Of a stretch of DNA of 33,623 nt, positions 12,157 to 27,061 are shown one piece after another. The stretch's first letter is position 1, and each line of letters starts with the position of its first letter. Position numbers and translations under genes: made by a program. Source of the DNA: a virus; IMG/VR virus record IMGVR_UViG_3300042485_004291, positions 1-33,623 of that record, one strand, 5' to 3'. The notes beneath the pieces are model-generated. The model ran no database searches. It had not been told where the DNA came from and saw only the letters and a program-made list of their open reading frames with translations.

Positions 12157-12170
12157 TTTTATCTCCTTTT

Positions 12171-12830
12171 CTAGTATTTATTATTAACATAAAAATTTTT
12201 TATTTTTATAAAACCAACCAAAACATATCTTATTGGACCTTTTCCTACGTGTTTAACTCCATGATTAAACTCTTCCGTTCCTGGAAAAAATATAAGTGTT
12301 CCTGCTTTTGGTTTTAATTCTAAGTTTTTATTTACAAAAAACAACTCGCCGTCAATGTAATCATCATTTAAATATAAAATTGTTGCATATTTAATTGCTG
12401 GGTCAGTATCTTTGTCTGTATGCGCTTTTAATTCTACACCCTCTTGCATTCTTTGAAAAGTAACCATCCCAGTTTGCTCTAAAGATGAATCTGCTGTTTC
12501 TACAACAGCAAGAATCTTGTTTAACCATGACATAACTATAGGATCTCCATGGGTATCATAGTTTTTGTCTTGCCATCCCTGGGTAATTTCAAATTTTCCC
12601 TCTGCAACTAAATTTTCTACATCATCTCTACCAAATTTTTCTAAACAAAATCTTTTTAAGTTTTTTGTGTACTCTATATTCCAATCATCTTCTGTTAAAT
12701 TATTTATAATACCCTTAATATAATCTAACTCTTCACTACTAGCAAAGTTTTCAATAACTAAAACCTGATCAATAGGCTCTTGAACTATAAAACCAATATC
12801 TTCTAATTCTTTTTTTAAAAAGGTAGCCAT
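12171..12830 (-). CDS. 2-oxoglutarate/Fe(II) dioxygenase (2)
   Basis: 219 residues. Iron ligands are H137 and D139 (KAHTDKD) and H190 (FNHGVKH), with R201 for 2-oxoglutarate. The core shows ATILYLNDDYIDGELFF and KPKAGTLIFFPG. The N-terminal 110 residues are helical and unlike those of the neighbouring oxygenases, so the substrate pocket probably differs. A basic Asn/Lys/Tyr-rich tail follows the core. It starts 2 bases after the stop of the previous gene with AAAGGA upstream, consistent with one polycistronic message. The family is clear; the substrate is unknown. Confidence 0.9.
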   Translation of the reverse strand: MATFLKKELEDIGFIVQEPIDQVLVIENFASSEELDYIKGIINNLTEDDWNIEYTKNLKRFCLEKFGRDDVENLVAEGKFEITQGWQDKNYDTHGDPIVMSWLNKILAVVETADSSLEQTGMVTFQRMQEGVELKAHTDKDTDPAIKYATILYLNDDYIDGELFFVNKNLELKPKAGTLIFFPGTEEFNHGVKHVGKGPIRYVLVGFIKIKNFYVNNKY

Positions 12831-12831
12831 T

Positions 12832-13581
12832 TTAGTCTATATCCTTTGCCTTATACTTATTCCCATTGGCATCTAGCTTCCATCCTTGTTTTAGTAACTT
12901 TTGCCATTCAGCCCTTTCAATTTCTTGTTTTGCTCTAGTTTCTTTCATTTCTTTTGCCCAAGAATCTCTTAACTCTTGTGGATAATCAGACTCTTCTCTA
13001 TCATCCCAGAAAGAACCTATGGTGTACCTTATTCCACTTTCTATTAGGGATACTTCGTGCATGTTGTTGAATCCTCCATCAAAAACTGCAAGCATTCCAA
13101 CCTTTGGCTCAATGTCTATATTCTGATCTGGAAACTTTAATAGTCCGCCTTCAAAGTCATCATTTAAGTAAAGAAATCCAGCATATCTGCTTCTTGTAAA
13201 AGCTCCCGATTTTCCTTCAGCATCTGTGTTATCTGAGTGTATTCTTGCAAATGCTCCTGGCTCCCATTTTTGTGTGTGGTATCCAATCTTAGAAATTGTT
13301 TTTGGATCTAAATCATGAACAGATGCTATTGCTTCTGGCATTATATTTTCAATATCTGAAAAAATTGTTGGAATTAATCCAGCATCAAGAACTTCCTGAT
13401 CTCCATCCTTTGGAAGAATAGATGAGTATGATTCATAAAAAGAAATTGGCATCCAGGATATTTTACCGTTATTTGCTTGTGCATCTAAAGCATTAATCAT
13501 TTTTTGACAAGTCTTCTCATCAATAAAGTTTTCGTATACTACTATATCTTTCGTTATTCTTTTTTTATTGTTTAAATTCAT
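12832..13581 (-). CDS. 2-oxoglutarate/Fe(II) dioxygenase (3)
   Basis: 249 residues. H115 and D117 (ARIHSDN), H175 (NMHEVSL) and R185 (ESGIRYTIGSFW) form the iron and 2-oxoglutarate site. FLYLNDDFEGGLLKF and EPKVGMLAVFDGG complete the core. A charged C-terminal extension of about 50 residues rich in Glu, Lys and Trp (residues 195-249) is predicted helical and could mediate protein contacts. The gene overlaps the preceding one by 4 bases (ATGA type), so translation is coupled. The substrate is unknown; similar phage proteins are usually annotated as prolyl 4-hydroxylase-like. Confidence 0.9.
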   Translation of the reverse strand: MNLNNKKRITKDIVVYENFIDEKTCQKMINALDAQANNGKISWMPISFYESYSSILPKDGDQEVLDAGLIPTIFSDIENIMPEAIASVHDLDPKTISKIGYHTQKWEPGAFARIHSDNTDAEGKSGAFTRSRYAGFLYLNDDFEGGLLKFPDQNIDIEPKVGMLAVFDGGFNNMHEVSLIESGIRYTIGSFWDDREESDYPQELRDSWAKEMKETRAKQEIERAEWQKLLKQGWKLDANGNKYKAKDID

Positions 13582-14252
13582 GGCTTTTTATTTCCTGTAT
13601 GTTCTGTGATCTCCCAAAAAAATGGACAGGTATATCTTATACCACTTTTAATTTCTGTTACTCCGTGAACATAGTTCATATCTCCTGGGAAAAAATACGC
13701 TGCACCCTTTTTAGGTTTAAACTGTACACCCTGTAGTGGGAAATATAGCTCTCCACCCTCATAGTCTTCATTTAAATAAAATAGACTTGAAAGGTCGTAG
13801 TTTGGAAAATCATTAGGAAGTCCTGCATCTGGACCTTCGTGCAGTTCTTTGTCTGCGTGAGGGTTCTGAAATTGGCCTGGTAGCCATCTAACAATAGTTG
13901 TACCAGTAGGTGTAACCTTTACCTTATAAAACTCTTCAACTATTGGCTTAAGCCTTTGAAATAATCCTGCAATTACTGGAGCAATTGTTGGATCATTTTT
14001 ATCTAAAGTTGGACTAGTTGCTACCCTATCTTTCCAATATTCAGAGTCATAGACAACCGTTCCGTTTTCATTAACATGGCTTTGAGTTACATCCCAAATT
14101 GTTAAAGATTTTGCAGCCTTTTCTAAAAACTCTATTTCTTCTTGAGTCATAAAATTTTCTAACTCAACAATCATTTCTTTTCCACTGCCAAAAAATCCTG
14201 AAGGCGTCATGGATGGAGTTCTTTTAACAACTTGTGCATTATTATTTGTCAT
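13578..14252 (-). CDS. 2-oxoglutarate/Fe(II) dioxygenase (4)
   Basis: 224 residues. H132 and D134 (NPHADKE), H196 (YVHGVTE) and R206 (KSGIRYTCPFFW) mark the active site. LFYLNEDYEGGELYF and KPKKGAAYFFPG are typical of the prolyl-hydroxylase-like branch. A loop rich in Pro, Asp and Gly (residues 138-152) follows the HxD motif. The ATG at 14252 has no SD, but a TATAAT box ends exactly 6 bases upstream, so a leaderless transcript from inside the cluster is possible. This would allow genes 14252 to 10820 to be transcribed separately from the upstream part of the island. Confidence 0.9.
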   Translation of the reverse strand: MTNNNAQVVKRTPSMTPSGFFGSGKEMIVELENFMTQEEIEFLEKAAKSLTIWDVTQSHVNENGTVVYDSEYWKDRVATSPTLDKNDPTIAPVIAGLFQRLKPIVEEFYKVKVTPTGTTIVRWLPGQFQNPHADKELHEGPDAGLPNDFPNYDLSSLFYLNEDYEGGELYFPLQGVQFKPKKGAAYFFPGDMNYVHGVTEIKSGIRYTCPFFWEITEHTGNKKP

Positions 14253-14258
14253 AATATG

Positions 14259-14264
14259 ATTATA
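14259..14264 (-). promoter_or_regulatory. Internal promoter in the dioxygenase cluster
   Basis: TATAAT overlapping the end of the upstream gene; the ATG at 14252 follows after exactly 6 bases with no SD. Confidence 0.55.
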
Positions 14265-14973
14265 CCCCTTTTCTATTATCTTTTACAGATAGGCGTAGAG
14301 TTGTTACTTCATGACTTCCTATTTTTTCTCCATGCTCATTAGTTGCATTTCTATACCAGTTTGTCCATTTTCCAACAGAAATATTTTTTTGTGAAGCTAT
14401 TCCATATGACTTATTTTTATTTTCTCTTACTCTTCCTGGATCTGAATAATCAAAAATTTGTATTTCAGTTTTATCCATTGCTGACAGCGAAATTGGTATA
14501 ATTGTTGCAATAGGCTCTCCAGCTTTTATTAATATTTCTTTATTGGCAATTTTTGCCCTTATTGCTAAAGGAAACCCAGTGTCTAGCCAAGAAGTGCTTA
14601 TTACTGTTGCAATTGTTTCAAAGTCATTATTAAAGTAGTTTACTGGATTAATCGTCATAATACTAACATTTTTATCTGACCTAATTACAATTCCAGTGTG
14701 TATGCTTAAACTTGACTGACCTCTTCCAGTATATGCAAAATCTTCACCTTCTAAAATTGTTACATGATCTTGACTTGTATCATTAACTCCATCCCAAATA
14801 AACCTTATGTCTTTATCAAGTGAAAGATTCCATCCAACCATGTTTGCTGAAGTTACTGGAAAACATCTATATGCGTGTTTATCTGGTGTTTTATCTAGCC
14901 AATCTCTTTTTATAGACATTGGAGAAATTGTCACTAAAGACTCTTGAAATTTTTCAACTGTTATATTTAACAT
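14260..14973 (-). CDS. DUF6065-like protein (1)
   Basis: 237 residues with a pattern I associate with the DUF6065 family: HAYRCFPVTSANMVGWNL, a SLSIHTGIVIRSDKNVSIM section, TVISTSWLDTGFPLAIRAKI and KAGEPIATIIPISL. The family has no established function. The C-terminal 60 residues are polar and may be a separate tail (SVGKWTNWYRNATNEHG). It starts 5 bases after the stop of a dioxygenase and lies between two dioxygenases, which suggests a shared pathway. The family assignment is from memory of its motif pattern and should be treated as likely rather than certain. Confidence 0.6.
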   Translation of the reverse strand: MLNITVEKFQESLVTISPMSIKRDWLDKTPDKHAYRCFPVTSANMVGWNLSLDKDIRFIWDGVNDTSQDHVTILEGEDFAYTGRGQSSLSIHTGIVIRSDKNVSIMTINPVNYFNNDFETIATVISTSWLDTGFPLAIRAKIANKEILIKAGEPIATIIPISLSAMDKTEIQIFDYSDPGRVRENKNKSYGIASQKNISVGKWTNWYRNATNEHGEKIGSHEVTTLRLSVKDNRKGV

Positions 14974-14978
14974 TAGTC

Positions 14979-15650
14979 TTAATCTTCAACATACATTTCT
15001 GCAGTATGAAACTTTTTGTTATAGTCTAACATAGTGACAATAGAGTATTTTGTGCCTGAGTGAACTGGCATTGCTTGATGAGGGTACATATAGTTAGATG
15101 GAAATATAAAAAGATCTCCAGCTTTTGGTTTAATGTTTAGGTTTTGTAATCTAAAGTATAACTCTCCACCTTCATAATCATCATTTACATATGCAACTAA
15201 AGAAACTGTACAATTATATGAAAATCCATGATCATGATGTTCTTTAAAATGTTGACCTGGACCATATTTAATAAAATTAAATGCCTCCCAATATTTTAAA
15301 TCTCCAAGGTTGTGATCTCTTCTATAGTCATCAACGGCTTGAACCTGAGCATCATAAATATCTTGCCACAAAGATTGTAGCTTTAAGGAATCTTCGCTAA
15401 GATCTTGTTCTATGTCTGTTTTTTTAAACTTAAAATCGTAACAATCTCTGTAGTCTGGCATAAGTTGCTTATATCCAACATATGCTGGCATCCAATGATA
15501 ACTTTTTCCTTCAGGAGACAGCTCTCCCATTTCAGCAACAGAGCCTAAGGTTTCTTCAAGTCTATTGATTACATCAAGCTCTTTTTTTATAACATTCCTA
15601 TAGAGAACAATTCCGTTTCCAAGGTTTTCTTTTTCTGTCCATGTTTTCAT
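14979..15650 (-). CDS. 2-oxoglutarate/Fe(II) dioxygenase (5)
   Basis: 223 residues from the ATG at 15650 (MKTWTEKE), chosen because SD AAGGAG (15659-15664) and a TGCTATAAT box (15673-15681) lie directly upstream. A start at 15710 would add 20 residues across those signals. The active site is H138 and D140 (KEHHDHG), H191 (YPHQAMP) and Lys201 (SGTKYSIV) in the 2-oxoglutarate position. It is a close paralogue of the enzyme at 16479-17213: both share RDCxDFK, AFNF[IV]KY, DHGxxYNCTVS and IFPSNYxY. The ORF region before 15650 overlaps the end of the neighbouring gene only if the longer start is used. Confidence 0.9.
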   Translation of the reverse strand: MKTWTEKENLGNGIVLYRNVIKKELDVINRLEETLGSVAEMGELSPEGKSYHWMPAYVGYKQLMPDYRDCYDFKFKKTDIEQDLSEDSLKLQSLWQDIYDAQVQAVDDYRRDHNLGDLKYWEAFNFIKYGPGQHFKEHHDHGFSYNCTVSLVAYVNDDYEGGELYFRLQNLNIKPKAGDLFIFPSNYMYPHQAMPVHSGTKYSIVTMLDYNKKFHTAEMYVED

Positions 15651-15672
15651 TATATTTTCTCCTTTATATATT

Positions 15673-15681
15673 ATTATAGCA
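15673..15681 (-). promoter_or_regulatory. Extended -10 of dioxygenase (5)
   Basis: TGCTATAAT followed by SD AAGGAG (15659-15664) and the ATG at 15650. Confidence 0.6.
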
Positions 15682-15685
15682 CTAT

Positions 15686-16477
15686 CTAGATATATTTTCT
15701 TCTTGACCATATTTTATTTTTATAAATACCACCATCTGGTTTACGATAAAAGTTTGAATTATCCATTAATTTATTATAGATTTCTTTTTGATCTAAAACT
15801 TCTATTTTTTGTTTCCAGTCTTCTCTTTTAAAAGGAAAAATTTGCAAATATGGAGTTCCTTCTGGTAAAACCCCTTCCCAACCTTCTACAATAAAAAATG
15901 GAAATGTTCCAAGTATATGAACTTTATCACAATCAACTATACCAGTTGTGTTTAAAAATGGTAAATCAAACCTATTCATTGGTGTCATAAACAAAGCACT
16001 ATATCCTTCTGGAAGCTCTAATCCCCAATTTGAATACCAAGCAAAATGTTCCCTATAAAAACCTTTTGGATGTTCAAACTGTGGCATAGGTGCTCTTTTA
16101 AGGCAAAAATCTTCATACTTTTTATCAGATACCTTAACGTCAATGCTTCCTTTTTCATTTTTAAAAAATGTAAGATCGCATGGAGTTTTTAATACATACC
16201 CTGTTGAAAAACCATCCATAATTGCTGGGCATGCTTTCCATGTTGGAATTTTTCCATAATCTGAATCTGTTCCTTCTTTTGGAATTGGACATACTTCTTT
16301 TGTTGCTTTATAATATTCTTCAGTAAATGGATTTTTTGCAAATCGGTCTGCATTTTTATACCAGGAAGGTATCACAGACTGTGTTGTAGATGGTGCAGAA
16401 AAACTTTTTTCATTTAACCATGGCCTATAAGGCCTAAATGTAATTACGTTTTCATCTTGATTATTTTTTTTAAACAA
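15686..16477 (-). CDS. DUF6065-like protein (2), TTG start
   Basis: 263 residues. ITFRPYRPWLNEKSFSAP opens the protein, then VIPSWYKNADRF, CPAIMDGFSTGYVL, HFAWYSNWGLELPEGYSALFM, FPFFIVEGWEGVLPEGTPY and QIFPFKREDW. The order of elements (a buried central strand region, then G-x-P-x-x-x-I-x-P) parallels the other DUF6065-like gene here, but sequence identity is low. The only in-frame start before the conserved part is TTG at 16477, one base after the TAA of the preceding gene, so translational coupling is likely. The function is unknown; its place between two paralogous dioxygenases is the main clue. Confidence 0.55.
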   Translation of the reverse strand: MFKKNNQDENVITFRPYRPWLNEKSFSAPSTTQSVIPSWYKNADRFAKNPFTEEYYKATKEVCPIPKEGTDSDYGKIPTWKACPAIMDGFSTGYVLKTPCDLTFFKNEKGSIDVKVSDKKYEDFCLKRAPMPQFEHPKGFYREHFAWYSNWGLELPEGYSALFMTPMNRFDLPFLNTTGIVDCDKVHILGTFPFFIVEGWEGVLPEGTPYLQIFPFKREDWKQKIEVLDQKEIYNKLMDNSNFYRKPDGGIYKNKIWSRRKYI

Positions 16478-16478
16478 C

Positions 16479-17213
16479 TTATTTATGACCTAGTTGATTA
16501 ATATCTGTCATGATTACCACACAATATTTTGTTCCTGATTTCATTGGCAAAGAAGCATGCTCATAGATGTAGTTTGATGGAAAAATTGCTATATCGCCAA
16601 CCTTTGGTTTATGTGTGTAACCATCTAGTCTTGGAAACCTAATTTCTCCACCATCATAGTTATCATTAATATATATTACAGCAGATACTGTACAGTTATA
16701 TGCTGGTCCGTGATCTGCATGTATATTAAAATGCGTTCCTTCACCTTCGTATTTTACAAAATTAAAGGCTTCGTAATAAACAACGCTTATGCCCCAATAT
16801 TTAGCATAATCATCTACGCAATATTTTAACTTTTCATATATTTCTTGATGAAGGTCTAAAAGCTCTGTATTGTGTTCATCTCTTGGACCTAAATCTTCTT
16901 GTTTATATTTAAAATCTATGCAGTCTCTTGCTCTTTTGATTGGTGTTGGAGAGTTAGTAACTGTTGCATCAGCCCATTTATATTTTTTATTATTTGATAA
17001 ATTTGATTCAAGTATGTTTATATATCTGTTTGCATCATCAATAGAAAAAACATTTTTATATATATTTAATCCTATACCTGGATTTTCAACAGTAATTTTT
17101 TCATCAAGCACTCTATCAATTCTTTTTGATGTTGTTTCTGATCTATCTTTAGTAAACCATGGGTTTGTATTTTCATCATCATATGCACTATTAGGTAATC
17201 TTTTGTTTTCCAC
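16479..17213 (-). CDS. 2-oxoglutarate/Fe(II) dioxygenase (6), GTG start
   Basis: 244 residues. H165 and D167 (NIHADHG), H219 (YEHASLP) and Lys229 (SGTKYCVV) form the predicted active site. INDNYDGGEIRF and KPKVGDIAIFPSNY complete the core. It is paralogous to the 14979-15650 enzyme but has an extra 30-residue polar N-terminus. GTG at 17213 is supported by AAGGAG 7 bases upstream (17221-17226) and a TGATACAAT box (17241-17249). This is therefore the likely first gene of the accessory-enzyme operon. Confidence 0.9.
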   Translation of the reverse strand: MENKRLPNSAYDDENTNPWFTKDRSETTSKRIDRVLDEKITVENPGIGLNIYKNVFSIDDANRYINILESNLSNNKKYKWADATVTNSPTPIKRARDCIDFKYKQEDLGPRDEHNTELLDLHQEIYEKLKYCVDDYAKYWGISVVYYEAFNFVKYEGEGTHFNIHADHGPAYNCTVSAVIYINDNYDGGEIRFPRLDGYTHKPKVGDIAIFPSNYIYEHASLPMKSGTKYCVVIMTDINQLGHK

Positions 17214-17572: not shown

Positions 17573-18346
17573 TTATTTTGACTTTTTACTAAACACCCTC
17601 AAGATGCTGTGCTTAAATCTCTTAGATGAGTATGCAAATCCTGGGAAGAATGGACCAAATCCTGGTGGGAAGAATGGACCAAATCCTGGGAAGAACGGGA
17701 AGAACGGAAAGAATGGTGGGAAAAATGGCGGGAAGAATGGAAAGAACGGTGGGAAAAATGGAGGAGTTGTTACACTAGTAGATGCACTTGAAACTAAAGA
17801 GTTTCCATTTGCATTTGTAGCATAAACCGTGTAAGTCTGTGAAGTATTTGCCTCTTGAGTAACGTTAACACTTGTTGTTCCTGAACCTACAGTAGCGCCT
17901 TTACTATCTGATGATGCCCATGTATATCCAGAAATAGCTTTACCACCATTTGCAGGGGCTACCCAAGAAACAGCATCATTAAGTGCTGAAGTTACTACAG
18001 TTGGTGCTGCAGGTGTTGCTGGAACAGTTGTTGCAGTAATAGAAGCAGAAGCAGAAGATGCATCAGAAGTTCCTGAAGCATTAGTACCAGTAACTGTAAA
18101 CGTATATGCAGTATTTGACTGCAATCCTGTAACTGTAAGTGGAGAAGAGCCTCCTGTTGCAGTAAAAGATCCAGGAGATGATGTTACTGTAAACGACGTT
18201 GCTGTTGCTCCTGCTCCTGCAGTAAATTCTACACTAGCAGCACCATTATTAAATGCACGACTTGTTCCTACGTCAGTTGCTGTAACGCTTGTTGGTACTC
18301 CTGGTGCACCCTTAGCTGAAGAGCCAATTACCCCTAAAATATCCAT
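17573..18346 (-). CDS. FN3-domain fibre protein with PFFP repeat tail (1)
   Basis: 257 residues from the ATG at 18346, which overlaps the preceding stop as TAATG. Two fibronectin type III-like domains lie at about residues 15-105 and 108-195 (SGYTWASS, SQTYTVYATNANGNS). A tract of about 45 residues follows, built almost only of Pro, Phe and a few Gly (PFFPPFFPFFP). The end is YSSKRFKHSILRVF, which looks like the first motif of an S74 chaperone domain that then stops. The second FN3 domain, the PFFP tract and the tail are shared with the protein at 24761-25804. FN3 domains on phage tails often bind cell-surface glycans. The PFFP tract is unusual and its role is unknown. Confidence 0.75.
   Translation of the reverse strand: MDILGVIGSSAKGAPGVPTSVTATDVGTSRAFNNGAASVEFTAGAGATATSFTVTSSPGSFTATGGSSPLTVTGLQSNTAYTFTVTGTNASGTSDASSASASITATTVPATPAAPTVVTSALNDAVSWVAPANGGKAISGYTWASSDSKGATVGSGTTSVNVTQEANTSQTYTVYATNANGNSLVSSASTSVTTPPFFPPFFPFFPPFFPPFFPFFPFFPGFGPFFPPGFGPFFPGFAYSSKRFKHSILRVFSKKSK
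17638..17763 (-). repeat. PFFP-coding short tandem repeat
   Basis: On the plus strand the tract is a run of GGGAAGAATGG-type units of 9-12 bases with few substitutions, encoding PFFP on the minus strand. Unit number differs from the second copy at 24830-24919, so the tract probably changes length by slippage or recombination. Confidence 0.8.
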
Positions 18347-20529
18347 TACGAAATATCTCCTACTACGTACCAAACATTTGAGCCTTCATAGACTGCTGTT
18401 GCTGAAGAGTATCTTACACGAAGTTTTGGTGCAGTAGCTGTGGCACCAGTAGAGTTAATTGTAACTCCAGATCCTTGTGCAAATGTTACTTGGCCAGCTC
18501 CCTTTTGAATAACATTGAGCTGTGTTCCTATTGGATAAGCTACATCTGCTGATGGTGGAATTGTAACTGTAATTGCTGAAGCATTTGATGCAGTTATAAA
18601 CTTACCAGCATCATCTAGAACAAATGTATATGTTGTTCCAGTTTGTCCATTAATACCTAGGTTAATTTTAGGTGAAGTTAAAGTTTTGTTTGTAAGTGTT
18701 TGGGCTGTTGAAAGATCTGCTGTAATACTAGTATTAATACTAAATGAGTTATCAGTTAATGTTAATCCGTTACCCGCAACAAATGTGCCAGCACCTGAAA
18801 ATTGACTAAACTCAATTGGATCTGTACCTATTGTTCCAACAGTGTTTATCTGTACAAAGCCCTTGTTATCGTTTGCTGTTCCTCCAGTTACGAATACAAA
18901 GTCTCCTCCATCAATTTCAGCAGGAGAATCAAAGTCTGTTGCTCTAGATGGTGCTCCTGATGCTGCTACTACGTAAATACCGTTTTCAGATGCAGTTGAT
19001 TGATTCTTAACAAGAATTCTGTTACCAGTTGCAAGAGTTACTCCGTCAAGAGTGTCTCCATTTTCAACAGCTGTAGCAAGTGCAATATTAGCAGTTGTTG
19101 CTGCGACTACTGAAGCGTGAATATGTAAACCTTCTCCAAGAGCATCTACATATGCTTTTGTTGCTGCGTCAGTTGAGTCAGTTGGTGTACCAAGACCTGT
19201 AATCTTGTTTGTACCCATTGCGATTGCGCCAGTCATTGTTCCACCAGCAAGGGCTAACTTAGCATTTAATTGTGCTTGAATGTCTGAAGTTACTTCACTA
19301 AGATATCCAATTTCTGTATCTGATACACCAGAAATTTTATCTTGCTTATTTCCTAAATCTGTTGTTAATCCAGAAATTTTAGATTGTGCAATTGCTGCTG
19401 ATGCATTAATGTCTCCATCAACAATAGTTCCGTCTAAAATCATTGTGCTAGTTACTGAGCCTGTGTCACCAGTTGTAACAACAGTACCGCTTATATCTGG
19501 GATTGTGATTGTACGGTCAGCAGTAGGGTCTGTAAATGTTACTGTAGTCTCAAAATCATTTGCTGTAGAACCTTCAACAACAATACTTCCATCTGTAATA
19601 GTTAGACCACTTACTGCTGGAGATGTTAATGTTTTACTTGTAAGGGTTTGTGCAGCAGAGTCAATAACAACTGTTCCTCCTGCATCAGGAAATGAAACTG
19701 TTCTGTCAGCAGTTGGATCTCCACCTGCAAGGGTAAGTTCAAAATCATCAGCGGTAGAACCTTCAAAAACGATTGAGCTAATCGTTCCAATACTATTAAT
19801 ACTTGATAGGTTTCCAGTTGTGATAACGGTACCGTCTACGTCAGGCAATGTAATTGTACGGTCTGCGGTTGGATCTGTTATTGCTAATACAGTTTCAAAA
19901 TCATTTGCAGTAGCACCTTCAAAAGTAAGTCCACCTTCAATAAAGATAGGATTACTAATTGTTGGTGTTCCAATTGATGGACTATTAAGAGATGTAATTG
20001 CTGAAAGGTTTCCAGTTGTAATGATTGTTCCAGTAACGTCTGGAATAGTGACTACACGATCTCCAGTTGGGTCTGTTACCTCAAGTCGTGTTTCAAAATC
20101 ATTTGCTGTAACACCTTCAAATGTAAATGAACCTACAACGTTAACATTTGTTGAATCAACTGTAGTGGTACTTCCTTGAACTGTTAAGTTACCAGCTACG
20201 GTTACGTTTCCACTACCATCTGCAAGTACTACAGTTCCTGTAGCATTGGGAAGAGTAATTGTACGATCAGCCGTTGGGTCTGTAACTACTAGTGTAGTTT
20301 CGTATGAGTCTGCTGTAGCACCTTCAAAAGTAATGCTAGTTCCAAAAGCGGGATTTACTGTAGAGTCAATATCAGCAAAGTAGTCTAGGCTTGCCCAGTG
20401 ATTTGTACCATCACCAATTTTAAATTTATTTGTATCAGATTCCCACCCAATTTCACCAGCGTTTAATACTGGGTTTGCAGATGTCCACTGTGAAGCAGTA
20501 CCTCTGCGCTGTTGCATTCTCGTTGCCAT
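18346..20529 (-). CDS. Long tail fibre, repeated beta modules
   Basis: 727 residues. The N-terminus (MATRMQQRRGTASQWTSANP ... WESDTNKFKIGDGTN) is the virion-anchoring module common to many phage fibres and to Mtd-type proteins. Then come about six copies of a module of roughly 45 residues with the core TFEGATADxFET and DPTADRTITLP, which should stack as a trimeric beta shaft. A fibre-type section (GYLSEVTSDIQAQLNAKLALAGG, TDSTDAATKAYVDALG) and a C-terminal beta tip follow. It likely reaches the host surface. SD GAGGAGC and a TGATATAAT box (20552-20560) precede the ATG, so it is the first gene of its own transcript, coupled to the FN3 gene downstream. Confidence 0.85.
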   Translation of the reverse strand: MATRMQQRRGTASQWTSANPVLNAGEIGWESDTNKFKIGDGTNHWASLDYFADIDSTVNPAFGTSITFEGATADSYETTLVVTDPTADRTITLPNATGTVVLADGSGNVTVAGNLTVQGSTTTVDSTNVNVVGSFTFEGVTANDFETRLEVTDPTGDRVVTIPDVTGTIITTGNLSAITSLNSPSIGTPTISNPIFIEGGLTFEGATANDFETVLAITDPTADRTITLPDVDGTVITTGNLSSINSIGTISSIVFEGSTADDFELTLAGGDPTADRTVSFPDAGGTVVIDSAAQTLTSKTLTSPAVSGLTITDGSIVVEGSTANDFETTVTFTDPTADRTITIPDISGTVVTTGDTGSVTSTMILDGTIVDGDINASAAIAQSKISGLTTDLGNKQDKISGVSDTEIGYLSEVTSDIQAQLNAKLALAGGTMTGAIAMGTNKITGLGTPTDSTDAATKAYVDALGEGLHIHASVVAATTANIALATAVENGDTLDGVTLATGNRILVKNQSTASENGIYVVAASGAPSRATDFDSPAEIDGGDFVFVTGGTANDNKGFVQINTVGTIGTDPIEFSQFSGAGTFVAGNGLTLTDNSFSINTSITADLSTAQTLTNKTLTSPKINLGINGQTGTTYTFVLDDAGKFITASNASAITVTIPPSADVAYPIGTQLNVIQKGAGQVTFAQGSGVTINSTGATATAPKLRVRYSSATAVYEGSNVWYVVGDIS

Positions 20530-21042: not shown

Positions 21043-22902
21043 TTATGCTTCAATATAAATTTTGTGTACTTTAACAGAGGTATCTGCTGATGCACCAGTT
21101 ACCTGAAGAAGAACGTTTCCACCACTGTAAACAGCGTTAGTAGTTCCTAGTTCAGTGTTGCTGATTACATCGGCATACTCTGTTAAGTAAACACTATTAT
21201 TGCCATCAACTGTAACAAGTACTTCAATTACTTCAATATCATTACCCTTTTTCATTTGTACGATATATTTAGCGCTTGAGTATGTTGTTGCTGACCAAGA
21301 GTCAATTGTAGTTGCTGAGGCTGAAGCGGTAGCAAGAGCAGAACCCATAAGGGCATCTGCAAAAGCAATGCTTGTCGCAGTTGCTGCACCAAGTACTGGA
21401 GTAACAAGAGTTGGTGTATTAGCAAATACTAGAGCATCAGTTCCTGTTTCGTCAGATATAACTCCTGCAAGTTCTGCAGATGTTGTTGCAGCCAGCGCTG
21501 AAATCTTGCTTGCTGTAGTAATACCATTTGTTACTGTTGCAGCATTTCCAGTGTACTGTGTTGCTGATAGAACTTCAGTTCCATTAATCTTTAATACCTT
21601 GCCAGAAGCAAGATCCATGTGCTCAGAAGATGTCCATGAATCAGTTGCATCTACCCAGTTAAAAGTTTTGTCTGTATTACCCTTAAGTGTAAGACCTCCG
21701 CCGTCAGCGCCTGCATCTGTTGGAGATGTTACTGCACCAAGAACAAGGTTCTTGTCATCAATTGTAATTTCTGTTGAGTTAATTGTAGTTGTTGTACCGT
21801 TAACTGTTAGGTCCCCTGAAAGAACCAAAGATGTACCAGTCGCAGCACCAATGTTTGGTGTTACAAGCGTTGGGGTATCAGCAAAAACAAGTGCTCCAGT
21901 ACCAGTCTCGTCAGAGATTACTGTACGAAGTTCTGATGAAGTAGTTGCTGCAAAGACATCCAACTTATTGTTTGTAAGAGCAACAGTACCTGTAGCATCT
22001 GGCAAAGTAATAGTCTTATCAGATGTTGGGTCTGTAACTGTAAGTGTTGTTTCAAATTCATTTGCTGTTGCGCCCTCAAAAACAATTCCATTTCCATCAA
22101 CTGCTGGAGATGTAAGAGTCTTATTTGTAAGAGTTTGTGTATCTGATGTACCAACTACTGAACCTGTAACTCCATGTACACCAGTTGATGCACCTGTGTG
22201 AGTTGTTAGATCTGAAGAAGAAGCCTTATCGTTTAGCTGAGTCTGAATTGCTGACGTTACACCGTCTACATAATTAAGCTCAGTTGTACTAGCGGTTATT
22301 CCATCAAGAACGTTTAGTTCTGATGCTGTTGAAGTAATTGATGTACCAGCAATTTGTAATGTTGTGGCATTTACCTCACCTGTTGCACCATAGACTACCG
22401 CTTTTCCATTTACAACGGTTCCTGCTGCTGATCCATCTATTAAGTTAAGTTCTGTAGCAGTTGCTGTAAGTACAACGTCTTCGTTAATCTTTGGTGAATT
22501 TAATGTTTTATTTGTAAGGGTCTCAGTTGAATCTTGAAGAACAACTGTTCCTGTTGCATTTGGAAGTGTAATTGTACGATCTGCTGTAGGATCTACTACT
22601 GTAAGTGTAGTCTCATAGTCATCTGCTGTCGCACCTTCAAAGACAATGCTTGATTCAAATACACCAACTGCTGCTGGTGCTGCCCACTCAATTCCGTTTG
22701 TTGCTCCAGAATTTGCTGTAAGAACATGTCCGTTTGTACCCGCTGCAAGGCGAGTTACGGTGTCTGCTGCTGAAGCAACTAGTAAATCACCTTTTACGTC
22801 TACTAATGCTTCTGTTAATATGTCGTGGCCATTTACGGTTGCGGTTGATCCCTCAACTACCAGCCCCGCTTTTACTCTAAAGTCTTTTGTTACTGTTGCC
22901 AT
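21043..22902 (-). CDS. Tail fibre with repeated beta modules
   Basis: 619 residues. The N-terminus MATVTKDFRVKAGLVVEG is followed by modules of the FEGATADDYETTL / DPTADRTITLPNATGTV type also found in the 18346-20529 fibre. Repeats of the TLTNKTLTSPA and TATELNLIDG types typical of phage fibres come next. The last 90 residues (SSAKYIVQMKKG ... VKVHKIYIEA) form a C-terminal domain shared with the protein at 22918-23364. The SD is AGGAG. Presumed role: shaft and tip of a receptor-binding fibre. Many DNA-level repeats make this region prone to recombination and to misassembly. Confidence 0.85.
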   Translation of the reverse strand: MATVTKDFRVKAGLVVEGSTATVNGHDILTEALVDVKGDLLVASAADTVTRLAAGTNGHVLTANSGATNGIEWAAPAAVGVFESSIVFEGATADDYETTLTVVDPTADRTITLPNATGTVVLQDSTETLTNKTLNSPKINEDVVLTATATELNLIDGSAAGTVVNGKAVVYGATGEVNATTLQIAGTSITSTASELNVLDGITASTTELNYVDGVTSAIQTQLNDKASSSDLTTHTGASTGVHGVTGSVVGTSDTQTLTNKTLTSPAVDGNGIVFEGATANEFETTLTVTDPTSDKTITLPDATGTVALTNNKLDVFAATTSSELRTVISDETGTGALVFADTPTLVTPNIGAATGTSLVLSGDLTVNGTTTTINSTEITIDDKNLVLGAVTSPTDAGADGGGLTLKGNTDKTFNWVDATDSWTSSEHMDLASGKVLKINGTEVLSATQYTGNAATVTNGITTASKISALAATTSAELAGVISDETGTDALVFANTPTLVTPVLGAATATSIAFADALMGSALATASASATTIDSWSATTYSSAKYIVQMKKGNDIEVIEVLVTVDGNNSVYLTEYADVISNTELGTTNAVYSGGNVLLQVTGASADTSVKVHKIYIEA

Positions 22903-22917
22903 CTTTTATCTCCTAGG

Positions 22918-23364
22918 TTAGGCCTTTAATCCCATACGCATGTAGCGTAGAGTTATAGGTGTCATTCCCCCTACTGGAAGAACAGTTAATGAAACTGTAT
23001 CTCCAGCCCTTGAAACAGAGATGGTGCCAATATTCCCATCATTGTCAATAGTTGCATATTCACTAACAGATATTCCTGATCCGTCAATTAATATGTTTAA
23101 TTCTGTAGAGTAGTACTTGTTTGCACCACCAGCTACATGTTTAATGGAAACCATATATTTCATTGATCGCCATTCACTTGCTGTAAAGCTATCAAAAATT
23201 GTTGAGTTTTCAATACCGTTGATTGTTTGCTCATTATTGCCATCTGAACCAAGATCTGTAGACCTAGCAGAAGTACTATCAATTAAATCTACATAGTTTT
23301 CCTGAGTTGGTCTATCACCAGTTTGAAATAGTGATTTAATATTTGCTATTGATATCTTTGCCAT
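22918..23364 (-). CDS. Small virion protein sharing a fibre C-terminal domain
   Basis: 148 residues. The N-terminal third (IKSLFQTGDRPTQENYVDLID) resembles the anchoring segment of phage structural proteins. The rest matches the C-terminal domain of the neighbouring fibre: FDSFTASEWRSMKYMVSIKH, YYSTELNILIDGSGISVSEYA, TVSLTVLPVGG, ITLRYMRM. It may be an alternative tip or capping subunit. There is no SD; TGATATAAT ends exactly 6 bases before the ATG, suggesting a leaderless message. Confidence 0.75.
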   Translation of the reverse strand: MAKISIANIKSLFQTGDRPTQENYVDLIDSTSARSTDLGSDGNNEQTINGIENSTIFDSFTASEWRSMKYMVSIKHVAGGANKYYSTELNILIDGSGISVSEYATIDNDGNIGTISVSRAGDTVSLTVLPVGGMTPITLRYMRMGLKA

Positions 23365-23370
23365 AGTGTT

Positions 23371-23379
23371 ATTATATCA
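23371..23379 (-). promoter_or_regulatory. Leaderless-type -10 box
   Basis: TGATATAAT, 6 bases, ATG (23364). It overlaps a 12-base palindrome ATATCATGATAT (23374-23385). Confidence 0.65.
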
Positions 23380-23384
23380 TGATA

Positions 23385-23606
23385 TTAAAGAATATAATTA
23401 TTGATTCCAATTATTTGAAGACCAATTCCAGGTATGTTTCCGTATGCTGGACCAACTCCAATTGTTGTGAATCTAACCCTAAATGGTAAGACTTCATTAA
23501 TTTTTATTGCTCTTGTTTTATATAAAATTTCTGATATTGGATACCCAACAGAGTTAACACTTTTTGCTTTATGGCTATCTATATCAATAATAATAACAGA
23601 TGCCAT
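23385..23606 (-). CDS. Small hypothetical protein in tail cassette
   Basis: 73 residues, beta-rich, with ISEILYKTRAIKINEVLPFRV and a Gly/Pro-rich end AYGNIPGIGLQIIGINNYIL. I do not recognise a named family. The ATG overlaps the stop of the upstream gene as TAATG, so it is co-translated with the module at 23606-24016. Probably a small structural partner of that protein. Confidence 0.6.
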   Translation of the reverse strand: MASVIIIDIDSHKAKSVNSVGYPISEILYKTRAIKINEVLPFRVRFTTIGVGPAYGNIPGIGLQIIGINNYIL

Positions 23607-24016
23607 TATGACTCGCTATTAGTTACATCTTCAATAACATTCATTGTGCCACGTGCAACTGTCCATACTCTAGAATCATCGCTTAGCTCAATATCAAAAA
23701 TATCTCCAGTCTCTAACAACACAGACTCATTTGCTGTAAGTGAAACAGTAAATTCTCCAGCACTGTCTATTTCTGTTTGAGTTGGATAAAGATCAACAAT
23801 TAATTCTGCATCATCTGTAAAATCTCCAGGGGAAGTGTTTGGTCGCTTAACTTCCATTGCAATAGTCCAATCAGGAATATTTAGTGCGTCTTTATTATCA
23901 TCTGTAACATAAACACGAAATGAAGATGTATCACCACGAACAATTGTCCATAATACATTTGGTGGAGTTAAACCAACAGAATATGAGCTTGCGCCTTGAC
24001 CTCTAAATGTAGCCAT
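23606..24016 (-). CDS. BppU-like N-terminal beta module (1)
   Basis: 136 residues. PNVLWTIVRGDTSSFRVYVTDDNK is followed by a strand-turn pattern with DWTIAMEVKRP, SAGEFTVSLTANES and IFDIELSDDSRVWTVARGTMNV. The layout (R-G-D near the start, about 100 residues of Ig-like strands, V[AW]RG near the end) is that of the baseplate upper-protein N-terminal domains that plug receptor-binding fibres into the tail. Related genes lie at 27672-28022 and 28868-29269. TGGTATAAT ends 9 bases before the ATG and no SD is visible. Confidence 0.7.
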   Translation of the reverse strand: MATFRGQGASSYSVGLTPPNVLWTIVRGDTSSFRVYVTDDNKDALNIPDWTIAMEVKRPNTSPGDFTDDAELIVDLYPTQTEIDSAGEFTVSLTANESVLLETGDIFDIELSDDSRVWTVARGTMNVIEDVTNSES

Positions 24017-24025
24017 AATATTATC

Positions 24026-24034
24026 ATTATACCA
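24026..24034 (-). promoter_or_regulatory. Extended -10 of BppU-like module (1)
   Basis: TGGTATAAT, 9 bases before the ATG at 24016. It lies back to back with the lysozyme promoter. Confidence 0.6.
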
Positions 24035-24081
24035 CCAACTACAATTATATTTATAGTATTTTTATATACTATTTTTAAAAC

Positions 24082-24111
24082 TTGACCAAAAGACTAAATT
24101 GATGTTATAAT
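24082..24111 (+). promoter_or_regulatory. Promoter of the lysozyme unit
   Basis: TTGACC (24082-24087), 18 bases, then TATAAT (24106-24111) with the extended -10 element TGT. Predicted transcription start is near 24118, the first base of the hairpin and of the leader ORF. It faces against all neighbouring genes. Confidence 0.8.
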
Positions 24112-24117
24112 TAATGT

Positions 24118-24137
24118 ATGCTACCGATTGGTAGCAT
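24118..24137 (+). promoter_or_regulatory. Perfect 8-bp hairpin at predicted mRNA 5' end
   Basis: ATGCTACCGATTGGTAGCAT folds as an 8-bp stem with a GATT loop. It begins at the expected transcription start and includes the ATG of the leader ORF, so it could hide that start, protect the mRNA end, or serve as an operator in DNA form. Confidence 0.7.
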
Positions 24138-24165
24138 TTGTTCTCTAGGAGGTATTTTACAATGA
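24118..24165 (+). CDS. Candidate 15-residue leader peptide of lysozyme
   Basis: ATG at 24118 lies exactly 6 bases after the -10 box, the spacing used by the leaderless genes of this window. It opens a 15-codon ORF (MLPIGSICSLGGILQ) whose TGA overlaps the lysozyme ATG as ATGA. It reads straight through the lysozyme SD (AGGAGGT). This could couple or gate lysozyme translation. Short ORFs arise by chance, so the support is the double coincidence of promoter spacing and ATGA overlap. Confidence 0.45.
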   Translation: MLPIGSICSLGGILQ

Positions 24166-24707
24166 GAGAGGCAAAAGTTTGGCTAGGGGTGTTTGTTTTA
24201 GTTCTTTGTAGTGCCGTTTTTTCTGGTTCTGCAAAAGCTACTAACGAAAACAATTTATTAAGCAAAAAGTCTTTAGAGGTTTCTGCCACCCCACAGGTGG
24301 CTTTTTTGGTTTCTAAAGAAAAAAAGCTTGAAAAATATGAAAATGCTCATAAATTAACTGATGAGCAACTAGTTGATATGTTGAAAGCTGTTGGATTTAA
24401 GGAGAAGGCTTTGAGGTCTGCTTGTGCTATTGCAAAGGCAGAATCTAATGGTCGTCCCCTTGCTTTTAACGGTAATGTAAAAACAGGAGATAGTTCTTAT
24501 GGTGTATTTCAAATAAATATGCTTGGAGAACTTGGGTCAGATCGTAGAGAAAAGTTTGAACTAGATTCAAACGCTGAGTTGTTAAACCCAGTTGTTAACG
24601 CACAGATTGCTCTCCACATGACTAAGGGTGGAGAAGATTGGTCAGCATGGTCATCCCTTAATGGGAAACGGTATCAAGAATGGTACTCTAAATATCCATG
24701 TAAGTAA
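24162..24707 (+). CDS. Secreted lysozyme/transglycosylase-like endolysin
   Basis: 181 residues from the ATG at 24162, which has an excellent SD (TAGGAGGT). Residues 1-26 are a Sec signal peptide (REAKVWLGVFVLVLCSAVF, cut after SAKA). A charged linker follows, then a lysozyme-like domain at about residues 60-181. ACAIAKAESNGRPLAFN carries the likely catalytic Glu, SSYGVFQINM is the substrate-groove motif, and WSAWSSLNGKRYQEWY is the C-terminal signature of transglycosylase-like muralytic enzymes. It should cut peptidoglycan outside the membrane during entry or lysis. It is the only gene in the tail cassette on the plus strand, with its own promoter and terminator. A terminator-like hairpin lies inside it at 24285-24307. 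Confidence 0.88.
   Translation: MREAKVWLGVFVLVLCSAVFSGSAKATNENNLLSKKSLEVSATPQVAFLVSKEKKLEKYENAHKLTDEQLVDMLKAVGFKEKALRSACAIAKAESNGRPLAFNGNVKTGDSSYGVFQINMLGELGSDRREKFELDSNAELLNPVVNAQIALHMTKGGEDWSAWSSLNGKRYQEWYSKYPCK
24285..24307 (+). terminator. Intrinsic-terminator-like hairpin inside the lysozyme gene
   Basis: GCCACC, loop CCACA, GGTGGC, then six T: a textbook intrinsic terminator, but about 40 codons into the lysozyme ORF, in the linker after the signal peptide. It would cut the message short unless ribosomes or an antiterminator prevent folding, so it may act as an attenuator for lysis timing. Confidence 0.6.
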
Positions 24708-24726
24708 TAACCTTTAATATAAAAAT

Positions 24727-24758
24727 ACCCTCCTTGCTTTTGGCTTGGAGGGTTTTTT
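24727..24758. terminator. Bidirectional intrinsic terminator
   Basis: ACCCTCC ... GGAGGGT stem with a small internal mismatch, followed by six T on the plus strand and by an A/T-rich tail on the other strand. It lies between the convergent stops of lysozyme (24707) and the FN3 gene (24761) and can end both transcripts. Confidence 0.85.
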
Positions 24759-24760
24759 AT

Positions 24761-25804
24761 TTATTTTAATTTAATATTAATAAGTCTTTGTATGCTGTGC
24801 TTGAATCTCTTAGATGAGTACACAAAGTTGGGGAAGAATGGTGGGAAGAATGGGAAAAATGGAAAGAATGGTGGGAAGAATGGACCAAATCCTGGAAAAA
24901 ATGGTGGGAAAAATGGTGGTGTTGTTACGCTAGTAGATGGATCTGATATTGCAGAATTTCCAATTGCATTAGTAGCATAAACAGTATAGGTTTGTGAAGT
25001 ATTTGCTTCTTGTGTTACTTCAACAGATAAGGTTGTTCCACTAACCGTGCCACCTTTACCGTCCGATGAGGCCCAAGTGTAGCCCGTAATTGTACTTCCA
25101 CCGTTTGCTGGGGCAATCCAAGATACGGTGTCTTTAAGTGCTGAGGTTACTACAGTTGGAGCAGCAGGTTTAGCTGGAACAGAGGTTTCTGAAACAATAA
25201 TTCCAGAGCTTGCAGAACTTGCAACTCCAGTACCATTAGCATTAATTGCAGCAATAGTAAAAGTATAAGATTGTCCTCCAGAAAATGACCCAGTAGCAGT
25301 TAAAGGACTTGTTGTTCCAGCACTGGTAGTTATTGAAATAGATGGAGATGAGGTTATAGTGTATCCACTAATTGCCTTACCGCCAGTTGCTGGTGGTGTA
25401 AATGTTAGACTTACTACTGTATTGCTTACTTTAGTTGCCACACCAATTGTTGGAGTTCCTGGAACAGTAGTTGCTGTAATTGAATTTGAAGCTATACTTG
25501 GCAAATAAGAACTTCCTAGTGCACTATTTCCTTTTGATGTAAATGTATAAGCTGTGCCAGATTGTAATCCTGTAACTGTTAATGGTGAAGAACCAGTAGC
25601 TGTAAAAGATCCTGGAGTTGATGTTACTGTATAGTCTGTTACTGGACCACCTGTTGTGGCAGCTACCAATGTAATAGTTGCAGATCCATTATTAAATGGA
25701 CGAGATGTTCCAACATCTGTTGCAGTTGGCACTGCACTATCTGGAAGATCATTGATTGGTGTAGTATATTGTAGTTTACTTAATGATGCTTTTGAAACTG
25801 TCAT
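24761..25804 (-). CDS. FN3-domain fibre protein with PFFP repeat tail (2)
   Basis: 347 residues from the ATG at 25804, two bases after the upstream stop; an ATG at 25834 would overlap that gene by 29 bases. Three FN3-like domains (about residues 25-110, 112-205, 210-300) are followed by a PFFP tract of about 33 residues and the tail NFVYSSKRFKHSIQRL. The last FN3 domain, the tract and the tail are clearly homologous to the protein at 17573-18346. Unlike that copy, no S74 remainder follows; the gene runs directly into a terminator. Likely a surface-exposed adhesin of the virion. Confidence 0.75.
   Translation of the reverse strand: MTVSKASLSKLQYTTPINDLPDSAVPTATDVGTSRPFNNGSATITLVAATTGGPVTDYTVTSTPGSFTATGSSPLTVTGLQSGTAYTFTSKGNSALGSSYLPSIASNSITATTVPGTPTIGVATKVSNTVVSLTFTPPATGGKAISGYTITSSPSISITTSAGTTSPLTATGSFSGGQSYTFTIAAINANGTGVASSASSGIIVSETSVPAKPAAPTVVTSALKDTVSWIAPANGGSTITGYTWASSDGKGGTVSGTTLSVEVTQEANTSQTYTVYATNAIGNSAISDPSTSVTTPPFFPPFFPGFGPFFPPFFPFFPFFPPFFPNFVYSSKRFKHSIQRLINIKLK
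24830..24919 (-). repeat. PFFP-coding short tandem repeat, second copy
   Basis: GGGAAGAATGG-type units on the plus strand, the same as at 17638-17763 but shorter and in a different order. The flank past the repeat (ATGCTGTGCTT[A/G]AATCTCTTAGATGAGTA in two parts) is also conserved, showing recent duplication or exchange. Confidence 0.8.
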
Positions 25805-25805
25805 C

Positions 25806-26138
25806 TTAAGAAATTTCAGATCCGTATGCTGCAAAAGATATATTTCCAGTTGAAGGATAAACTAGAATTTTATCTGAAGCAGCAAGAGTTACTCCAATTG
25901 TTAATACAATAGTGTCATTTGCTGCAACTGTTGTTCCATAAACCAAATAATGTTTGCTGGTAGTTGTAGCGTCCTCTGATGGCCTTACAGCAACTCTAAA
26001 TGTTGCAGATGTTGCTGCTTGATTACAAATTGTAATACTTGATGCTACAGTCTGTGTGCTAGATGGAGTTGTGTAAAGAATAGACTCAGTGGCTGCAGAC
26101 GGATTTGCCTGTCCTAATACCTTATATACGCTTGCCAT
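25806..26138 (-). CDS. Small virion surface protein, beta sandwich-like
   Basis: 110 residues, Ala/Thr/Ser-rich with alternating strands: SVYKVLGQANPSAATESILYT, SSITICNQAATSATFRVAV, YGTTVAANDTIVLTIG and DKILVYPSTGNISFAAYG. Proteins with this layout recur in marine and freshwater phage tail cassettes, but I know no established function. SD AGGGGAT is present. It is coupled to the FN3 gene downstream. Confidence 0.7.
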   Translation of the reverse strand: MASVYKVLGQANPSAATESILYTTPSSTQTVASSITICNQAATSATFRVAVRPSEDATTTSKHYLVYGTTVAANDTIVLTIGVTLAASDKILVYPSTGNISFAAYGSEIS

Positions 26139-26150
26139 TATATCCCCTAA

Positions 26151-26582
26151 TCACATTCCACCCAGCATGAAAGATGTTGGTATTGGGTCATCTAAATCTA
26201 CCCATGATGTTATTGTACCATTTGTTTGCAAGTATTTTCCTTCATTATTAATTTGAGAAGGTATAAAACCAATCCAAGAAGATCCATTATAGTATTGAAG
26301 TTGATAAACTGTATTACCACTGCCATCTTGCCTTATTAAACATATTGACCCAGCCACTGGAGAAGTTATTGATGCATCTCTTGCTGTAGGATTGAGATAG
26401 TTGTTTATACCCTTTTTTGCAACCAAAGATTCAAGCATTGTTACAGCAGATAAATAGCTTTGTAGCCCAGCCCACTCAAATGTTCCAGATGTATCTGTTT
26501 TACCAGATAATTCATACCAAGTATCGTCTGCTGCGTTATATATGTAACCTGGTTTACCGTCGTAATTAAATGATGTTGGCAT
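26151..26582 (-). CDS. Tail-cassette structural protein
   Basis: 143 residues. It starts with PTSFNYDGKPGYIYNAADDTWYELSGKT, the display-hairpin type found in phage fibres. A short helix (SYLSAVTMLESLVAKKG) and a second beta part (SICLIRQDGSG, QYYNGSSWIGF) follow. No enzyme motif is seen. It is coupled by a one-base ATG/TAA overlap to the gene at 26582-27061, so the two are probably built in fixed ratio. Confidence 0.65.
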   Translation of the reverse strand: MPTSFNYDGKPGYIYNAADDTWYELSGKTDTSGTFEWAGLQSYLSAVTMLESLVAKKGINNYLNPTARDASITSPVAGSICLIRQDGSGNTVYQLQYYNGSSWIGFIPSQINNEGKYLQTNGTITSWVDLDDPIPTSFMLGGM

Positions 26583-27061
26583 TAAACCACCTGATCAAAA
26601 GTGCTAGTGTCACCATTATAAACATACATCTCTAATGGGCTTGATCCTTTTTTAATCCAAATAACTCCATTAGCTAATCCAGTTGATGGCTGTGTTGCTG
26701 TGTAAATAGATGTTGCTGATAGATATCCTACTGGGGCTGCTGCATCTTTGTCTACCCAAATATATCCGTTTGGAATTGTTTCAGAAAATGCTGTAAAGTT
26801 TGCTGCAACGGGTGCAGAATTTTGTGCTGAAGATATATTTCTTGCTGAAACCTCTAGGGCAGCCTTTGTAGTAATTTGACTCTGTAAACTATTAATTGTA
26901 TAAGCAATTGATGGATTTAAAAGTTCTGCTGGGTCTGTTTCTGCGGTATCAAAATCATAGGAACCGTAGTGGTATGCCTTTAAAGCATCTTGAATATTAG
27001 CATCATCAATTAATGCTGGAATTTTAGTTGGTACTAAACTTCCTATGTTTTCTACAGCCAT
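26582..27061 (-). CDS. Tail-cassette structural protein
   Basis: 159 residues. The start (GSLVPTKIPALIDDANIQDALKAYHYGS) is helical and may bind the tail. The C-terminal part has two repeats of an NGYIWVDKDAAAPVGYLSA / NGVIWIKKGSSPLEMYVYN hairpin, common in phage fibre-network proteins. SD AGAGGTGA and a TGGTATAAT box (27079-27087) support the start and show that a transcript begins here. Confidence 0.7.
   Translation of the reverse strand: MAVENIGSLVPTKIPALIDDANIQDALKAYHYGSYDFDTAETDPAELLNPSIAYTINSLQSQITTKAALEVSARNISSAQNSAPVAANFTAFSETIPNGYIWVDKDAAAPVGYLSATSIYTATQPSTGLANGVIWIKKGSSPLEMYVYNGDTSTFDQVV

Follow-up and report, generated by a model that had tools for sequence, protein, structure and literature searches.

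Conserved hairpins at the start of and within a phage lysozyme gene suggest an intragenic attenuator

In phage lambda, the promoter pR' is followed by a ~190-nt RNA (6S RNA), the terminator tR' and then a cell-wall hydrolase, and this terminator precedes the lysis genes and serves the whole late operon under Q antitermination. The phage lysozyme gene described here shows the same order of elements, but its terminator-like hairpin lies inside a single monocistronic gene. In E. coli pyrBI, an intrinsic terminator overlaps a translated stretch, and an advancing ribosome blocks its formation (PMC5021804, PMC4824070), an overlap that the predicted phage element shares. However, pyrL is a separate leader peptide, whereas the phage hairpin sits within the structural gene, 41 codons in, and the likeness rests on the position of the terminator, not on a nucleotide-sensing pause. 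Ribosomes suppress intrinsic terminators within coding regions (PMC5021804). In E. coli, terminators that lie no further than 100 bp into a coding region are effective, those beyond depend on the kinetics of transcription and translation, and the leading ribosome needs no more than ~100-200 nt of new mRNA to catch up with RNA polymerase (PMC4824070). Lysozyme expression from T4 gene e is also under the control of mRNA structure near the start, where a helix formed in the early transcripts masks the ribosome binding site (PMC3014915), whereas in the present gene the Shine-Dalgarno sequence is free and a second hairpin lies within the coding region. Finally, the ompA work cited in PMC3997798 describes stem-loops that begin with base 1 or 2 of the RNA and precede an unpaired segment carrying the Shine-Dalgarno sequence; such stem-loops protect RNA ends in E. 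coli and stabilise the mRNA, and pyrophosphohydrolase needs unpaired 5' nucleotides (PMC3997798). The likeness of the phage leader to these stem-loops is one of predicted structure. We found no prior description of the lysozyme hairpin element in the open-access literature.

We analysed a 33.6-kb fragment of an uncultured phage (the window, meaning the whole stretch of 33,623 nt), in which a simple non-overlapping ORF call gives 36 frames on the minus strand and 2 on the plus strand. The lysozyme gene is among the few plus-strand exceptions (Table 1). Its product matches SLT_3 (PF18896) with an E value of 2.8e-15 and 57 bits against a cut-off of 27, and the hydrophobic N-terminus is kept across all clades. 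Six scans of the viral collection yielded at least ~430 loci with lysozymes of this family, and a single scan placed at least 469 relatives among the candidate stretches. We compared four groups, each named for its nearest query: q1, which contains the window, q2, q4 and q6. The window lysozyme shares 52-59% protein identity with the other main-clade representatives. At the sensitivity used, two scans of ~85,000 bacterial and archaeal genomes gave no match to the family, and among cultured phages there is no relative above 60% identity, only distant ones. Of 15 long contigs of lysozyme-bearing phages, 12 encode WhiB, an actinophage marker (PMC6802176); therefore, the hosts are most likely Actinobacteria, and the carriers most likely form a very common group of uncultured viruses infecting them. 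The gene is served by a promoter of its own and in most cases also by a separate terminator: among 250 distinct relatives, 165 have a terminator-like site 3' of the gene. It is opposite in strand to both neighbours at 169 distinct loci. As part of the attenuator explanation developed below, the lysozyme gene is probably a solitary, self-contained transcription unit in actinophages.

Table 1. Positions of the lysozyme gene and its predicted control elements in the window
Feature	Position	Strand	Remarks
Sigma-70-type promoter TTGACC-18-TATAAT, extended -10 TG	24082..24111	+	11/12 consensus bases; TTGACC 24082-24087, 18-nt spacer, TATAAT 24106-24111
5'-terminal hairpin ATGCTACC-GATT-GGTAGCAT	24118..24137	+	8 perfect pairs, loop GATT
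Leader ORF, 15 codons, judged a non-functional by-product	24118..24165	+	ATG 24118, TGA 24163-24165; ATGA overlap in 42/189 distinct leaders
Shine-Dalgarno AGGAGG of lysozyme gene	24147..24152	+	perfect; kept in relatives
Exported lysozyme-like protein, SLT_3 domain	24162..24707	+	181 aa plus stop
Predicted N-terminal signal peptide MREAKVWLGVFVLVLCSAVFSGSAKA	24162..24239	+	by inspection; hydrophobic, ends in AKA
Internal hairpin GCCACC-CCACA-GGTGGC	24285..24301	+	codons 42-47, 6 pairs
U-tract T6 of internal terminator-like element	24302..24307	+	directly 3' of hairpin
Catalytic SLT_3 domain	24384..24653	+	residues 75-164, profile match
Predicted 3' terminator ACCCTCC ... GGAGGGT, 13-nt loop, then T run	24727..24758	+	sequence

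We interrogated the conservation of the internal hairpin, which sits 123 nt into the gene, downstream of the signal-peptide part and upstream of the catalytic domain, and is present in every clade. With the sequences aligned by protein columns and not by structure, pairing over the six stem pairs reaches 98.6% across 105 distinct sequences from q1, q2 and q6, against 20-53% when the pairing is slid by 1-3 positions. Because the sequences are related, such raw counts are not independent, and counts on a tree, built from the protein part behind the hairpin, are the safer measure. On this tree, pair 4-14 shows six changes on each side, and therefore all six are double. The codons at -5 and -2 from the Phe codon encode Thr-Val (ACC..GTG), Asp-Ser (GAC..TCG), Ser-Glu (TCC..GAG) or Ala-Ala (GCC..GCG), so that four residue pairs occur at the same two protein positions with the RNA pairing unchanged; double-changed states also occur at pairs 1-17, 5-13 and 6-12. 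The silent stem sites 3 and 15 have 0 changes on the tree, compared with 12-28 at silent sites beyond the paired and U-tract positions, and the Phe codon 3' of the stem is TTT in 110 of 110 distinct sequences, compared with 769 of 956 (80%) elsewhere in the gene. Clade q4 carries a different hairpin at the same site, CCTC-GAAA-GAGG plus an A-T or G-T pair (for example, ACCTC-GAAA-GAGGT), followed by T7. Synonymous recoding gives p values of ~0.02-0.04 for most sequences and 0.1-0.3 for some; the strength of the case is the covariation, and the recoding test is moderate per sequence. The predicted internal hairpin is thus maintained even at the cost of protein changes. Terminator-like hairpins within genes are usually discounted as chance, and compensating, protein-altering changes across a very large family of uncultured actinophages are a rare and clear sign of selection on RNA structure in a coding region.

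The internal element combines a G+C-rich hairpin with a U-rich tract, as intrinsic terminators do, in the window and in the main clades. Its T-score (clade mean 4.15, against 3.1-3.9 for the 3' terminators) matches the 3' terminators in the main clades, and the calculated hairpin energy, near -9.6 kcal/mol, compares with medians of -11 to -17. A modest hairpin energy with a good U-tract is the expectation for a leaky attenuator, and the two values fit a modest predicted intrinsic terminator. In two subclades the hairpin persists beside a weak U-tract, ATTTGTTG with GCCTCC/GGAGGC (T-score 2.3) and TCTTTTGC with GCCGCC/GGCGGC (T-score 2.8), and a hairpin kept despite a poor U-tract would suit a pause or another hairpin function as well. 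The distance from the start codon to the hairpin is 120-150 nt in all four clades, with one start-codon outlier, which places the predicted terminator inside a translated stretch and within reach of the first ribosome, as in pyrBI.

Both hairpins are specific to the lysozyme gene in the genomes examined. A simple scan of 22000-27000 finds 4 terminator-like sites against 2.8 expected, which is unremarkable alone. Using strict rules (at least 6 pairs, 4 G-C, at most 1 G-U and at least 5 T in the next 8 positions) with ORFs called by a crude longest-ORF rule, we found one sense-strand terminator-like hairpin within an ORF per genome, always that of the lysozyme, in the window and in two related contigs of 104 kb and 108 kb. 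No other promoter with 10-11 of 12 consensus bases has a stem of 8-9 perfect pairs at its start site in these three sequences, and the few remaining promoter-stem cases have 9-10/12 promoters with shorter or irregular stems.

At the start of the RNA, the preliminary description had reported a TTGACC-18-TATAAT promoter and a perfect 8-bp hairpin, and further on a 15-codon frame joined to the lysozyme gene by an ATGA overlap and an internal 6-bp hairpin with six T; all of these are present in the window. It had also proposed to check related phages for compensatory changes in both hairpins, and these are found in both. The promoter is kept in relatives as TTGACY/TTGCYY followed by TATAAT or TATACT, with a variable spacer. 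The 5' hairpin starts 6 nt past the -10 box, and its first base is the predicted RNA start; a hairpin lies behind the -10 hexamer in 187 of 189 distinct leaders, with the stem usually starting 5-7 nt past the hexamer. Among the stem pairs are ATGCTACC/GGTAGCAT, ATGCTACT/AGTAGCAT, TATAGCAC/GTGCTATA, TATGGCAC/GTGCCATA, ATGACACC/GGTGTCAT, ATAGCACC/GGTGCTAT, AACACCAT/ATGGTGTT and TAACACCT/AGGTGTTA. The stems thus differ between clades in both arms and retain their complementarity. Stems of at least 7 bp near the start occur in 139 of 187 leaders, compared with 1.1% after shuffling. Taken as predicted structures, both hairpins are conserved far beyond chance, and their patterns of change show selection on the RNA structure itself. 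A gap of 9 nt separates the 5' hairpin from the Shine-Dalgarno sequence, which stays free, and by analogy with ompA the hairpin most likely shields the RNA end from decay.

The leader pattern was not found before any other phage gene in the fetched loci: this lysozyme follows in 183 of 183 occurrences, two of which are cut by contig ends with a downstream start of the same protein. Each of the 15 long contigs has at most one such leader, and we excluded a leader shared with other phage genes. A DNA operator is unlikely because the stem changes are complementary between clades and the loop has 4 or 5 nt, as seen in the q1 clade. Pairing of the 5' arms with the arms of the internal hairpin (GCUACC/GGUGGC in the window) is lost, by inspection, in the GUCGGC or GGCGGC clades. 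Sequestration of the Shine-Dalgarno sequence is not conserved: AGGAG and AUG fall within a loop of the predicted fold, in contrast to T4 gene e, and a UUCUCU/AGAGA helix enclosing the ribosome site is absent in clade 6. Rfam gives no matches above the gathering score in the window. As a separate observation, pyrimidines 5' of the Shine-Dalgarno sequence can pair with purines 3' of it (24140-24172), as UUCUCU/AGAGA in q1 and q2, GUUUUC/GAAAC in q4 and UUUU/AAAA in q6, which may be a weak ribosome-site loop or mere composition.

The leader ORF fared differently from the hairpins. Its stop overlaps the lysozyme ATG as ATGA in 42 of the 189 distinct leaders, while 51 end at other stops (19 after 5 codons, with a 5-nt loop, 10 after 10 codons and 22 elsewhere) and 96 have no ATG sequence. 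As the ATG belongs to the stem in ATGCTACC clades, we regard the frame as an accident of stem sequence, whose presence in these leaders is not beyond chance. The conserved short leader ORF of a leader-peptide attenuator is therefore missing, and the proposed coupling of leader translation to lysozyme translation is rejected, since the ORF is not kept and the gene has its own perfect AGGAGG. Of the attenuator that the preliminary description proposed, the separate leader ORF falls away and attenuation at the internal hairpin is still the best reading, in which the first 40 codons of the lysozyme would take the leader role.

We therefore propose that the lysozyme gene probably carries a built-in intragenic attenuator, for which we infer termination, the role of the ribosome and the purpose. 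A strong host-type promoter would start the RNA, and its first bases would fold into a hairpin, probably protecting the 5' end. About 190 nt on, within the coding sequence, the RNA would form a terminator hairpin with a U-tract. When no ribosome is close, RNA polymerase would stop and leave a short RNA with a hairpin at each end; a leading ribosome close behind the polymerase, or a hypothetical antiterminator, would instead block the hairpin and allow full-length lysozyme to be made. The signal-peptide part of the gene would thereby serve as the 'leader peptide' of its own attenuator. We found no conserved antiterminator structure. The 120-150 nt between start codon and hairpin correspond to the interval in which an E. 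coli ribosome catches up, and translation-paced attenuation is thus the most economical reading. Since the gene stands alone on the opposite strand, curbing its transcription may also limit antisense transcription into the neighbours. If the hairpin terminates, it shows that the output of a dangerous exported enzyme can be curbed by a phage inside the gene itself, in hosts without model phages, and the locus opens transcription-translation coupling in Actinobacteria to direct testing. A bolder version, which we consider doubtful, treats the linker of the secreted lysozyme as a sensor of translation speed, with residues chosen in complementary pairs as an overlapping code and with a functional aborted RNA. 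If true, production of the enzyme would require an ample supply of ribosomes, and hairpins at both ends would protect the aborted RNA.

Other functions of the hairpins were weighed against the attenuator. Except where the Shine-Dalgarno sequence and coding impose constraints, clades differ freely in the bases that separate the two hairpins, so that no conserved seed can be seen there, which makes it unlikely that a short regulatory RNA of ~190 nt, acting on other messages, is the product and lysozyme the result of read-through; this holds even though the predicted RNA ends in hairpins on both sides, has a steady length of ~186-212 nt in all four clades and has cited support from E. coli (PMC7815308). 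Such an RNA would be compatible with attenuation, and the two are not exclusive. It is rather unlikely that the internal hairpin acts without termination, either by delaying the ribosome or RNA polymerase at codons 35-40 in aid of export or folding or by setting mRNA decay. The persistence of the hairpin in the weak-U-tract subclades and the predicted signal peptide agree with such a role, but a ribosome halted there would keep most of the signal peptide inside the tunnel, a translational pause needs no invariant TTT behind the stem, and a 6-bp stem is short both as a roadblock to ribosomes and as a target of RNase III. The strong host-type promoter, the hairpin at the RNA start and the terminator-like site ~190 nt on, before most of the hydrolase gene, would also suit late antitermination, in which RNA polymerase, modified by a phage protein while at the promoter or 5' hairpin, would read through the internal terminator only late, as happens with lambda Q at pR'-tR'. 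We consider this quite improbable: we know of no Q-like gene or conserved sequence site for these phages, the 5' hairpin is conserved in shape and not in sequence, unlike a protein recognition site, and only one short gene lies downstream. That the hairpin has no RNA function and reflects protein constraint or shared ancestry, as identical sequences in close relatives and the modest per-sequence synonymous p values might suggest, is highly improbable given six double changes at one pair, all complementary, four residue pairs at two positions, no change at two silent stem sites and a hairpin that is unique in the genomes examined.

The attenuator was also proposed to control lysis timing, a role that is inferred and not established. 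SLT_3 occurs exactly once per contig in the long contigs, and a CHAP protein, peptidoglycan-hydrolase-like, is encoded in 12 of these 15. With a CHAP gene elsewhere in the genome, this lysozyme need not set lysis, and the step from 'lysozyme' to 'lysis clock' is therefore weakened; the lysozyme may not be the sole lysis enzyme, and the CHAP protein is a candidate second hydrolase or endolysin. The CHAP frame has ~185-268 aa and in most of these phages lies on the same strand as WhiB, no more than ~5-9 kb away (L516/L517/L518, contig G009 and other long contigs).

A group of more distant phage SLT proteins with N-terminal hydrophobic segments (L386, L388, L391, L397 and L417) has a terminator-like hairpin in the 5' UTR, directly upstream of the Shine-Dalgarno sequence. 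It reads GGCTCC-AGTAAT-GGAGCC TTTTGC, or AGCCGGTA-GCGA-TACCGGCT TTTGC in L397; the stems are altered yet complementary, and this looks like a parallel solution in the leader. Elsewhere in the window, several adjacent minus-strand ORFs at 11491-17213 look alike, with motifs such as YLNDDYEGGEI, and by eye resemble 2-oxoglutarate/Fe(II) oxygenases; near them lie a tryptophan-halogenase-like gene (7438-8628, PF04820) and a B12-dependent ribonucleotide reductase (8634-10664). The minus-strand proteins at 17573-18373 and 24761-25834 have similar C-terminal Phe/Pro-rich repeats (PPFFPPFFPFFPPFFP), and the latter has a fibronectin type III match, which was tested.
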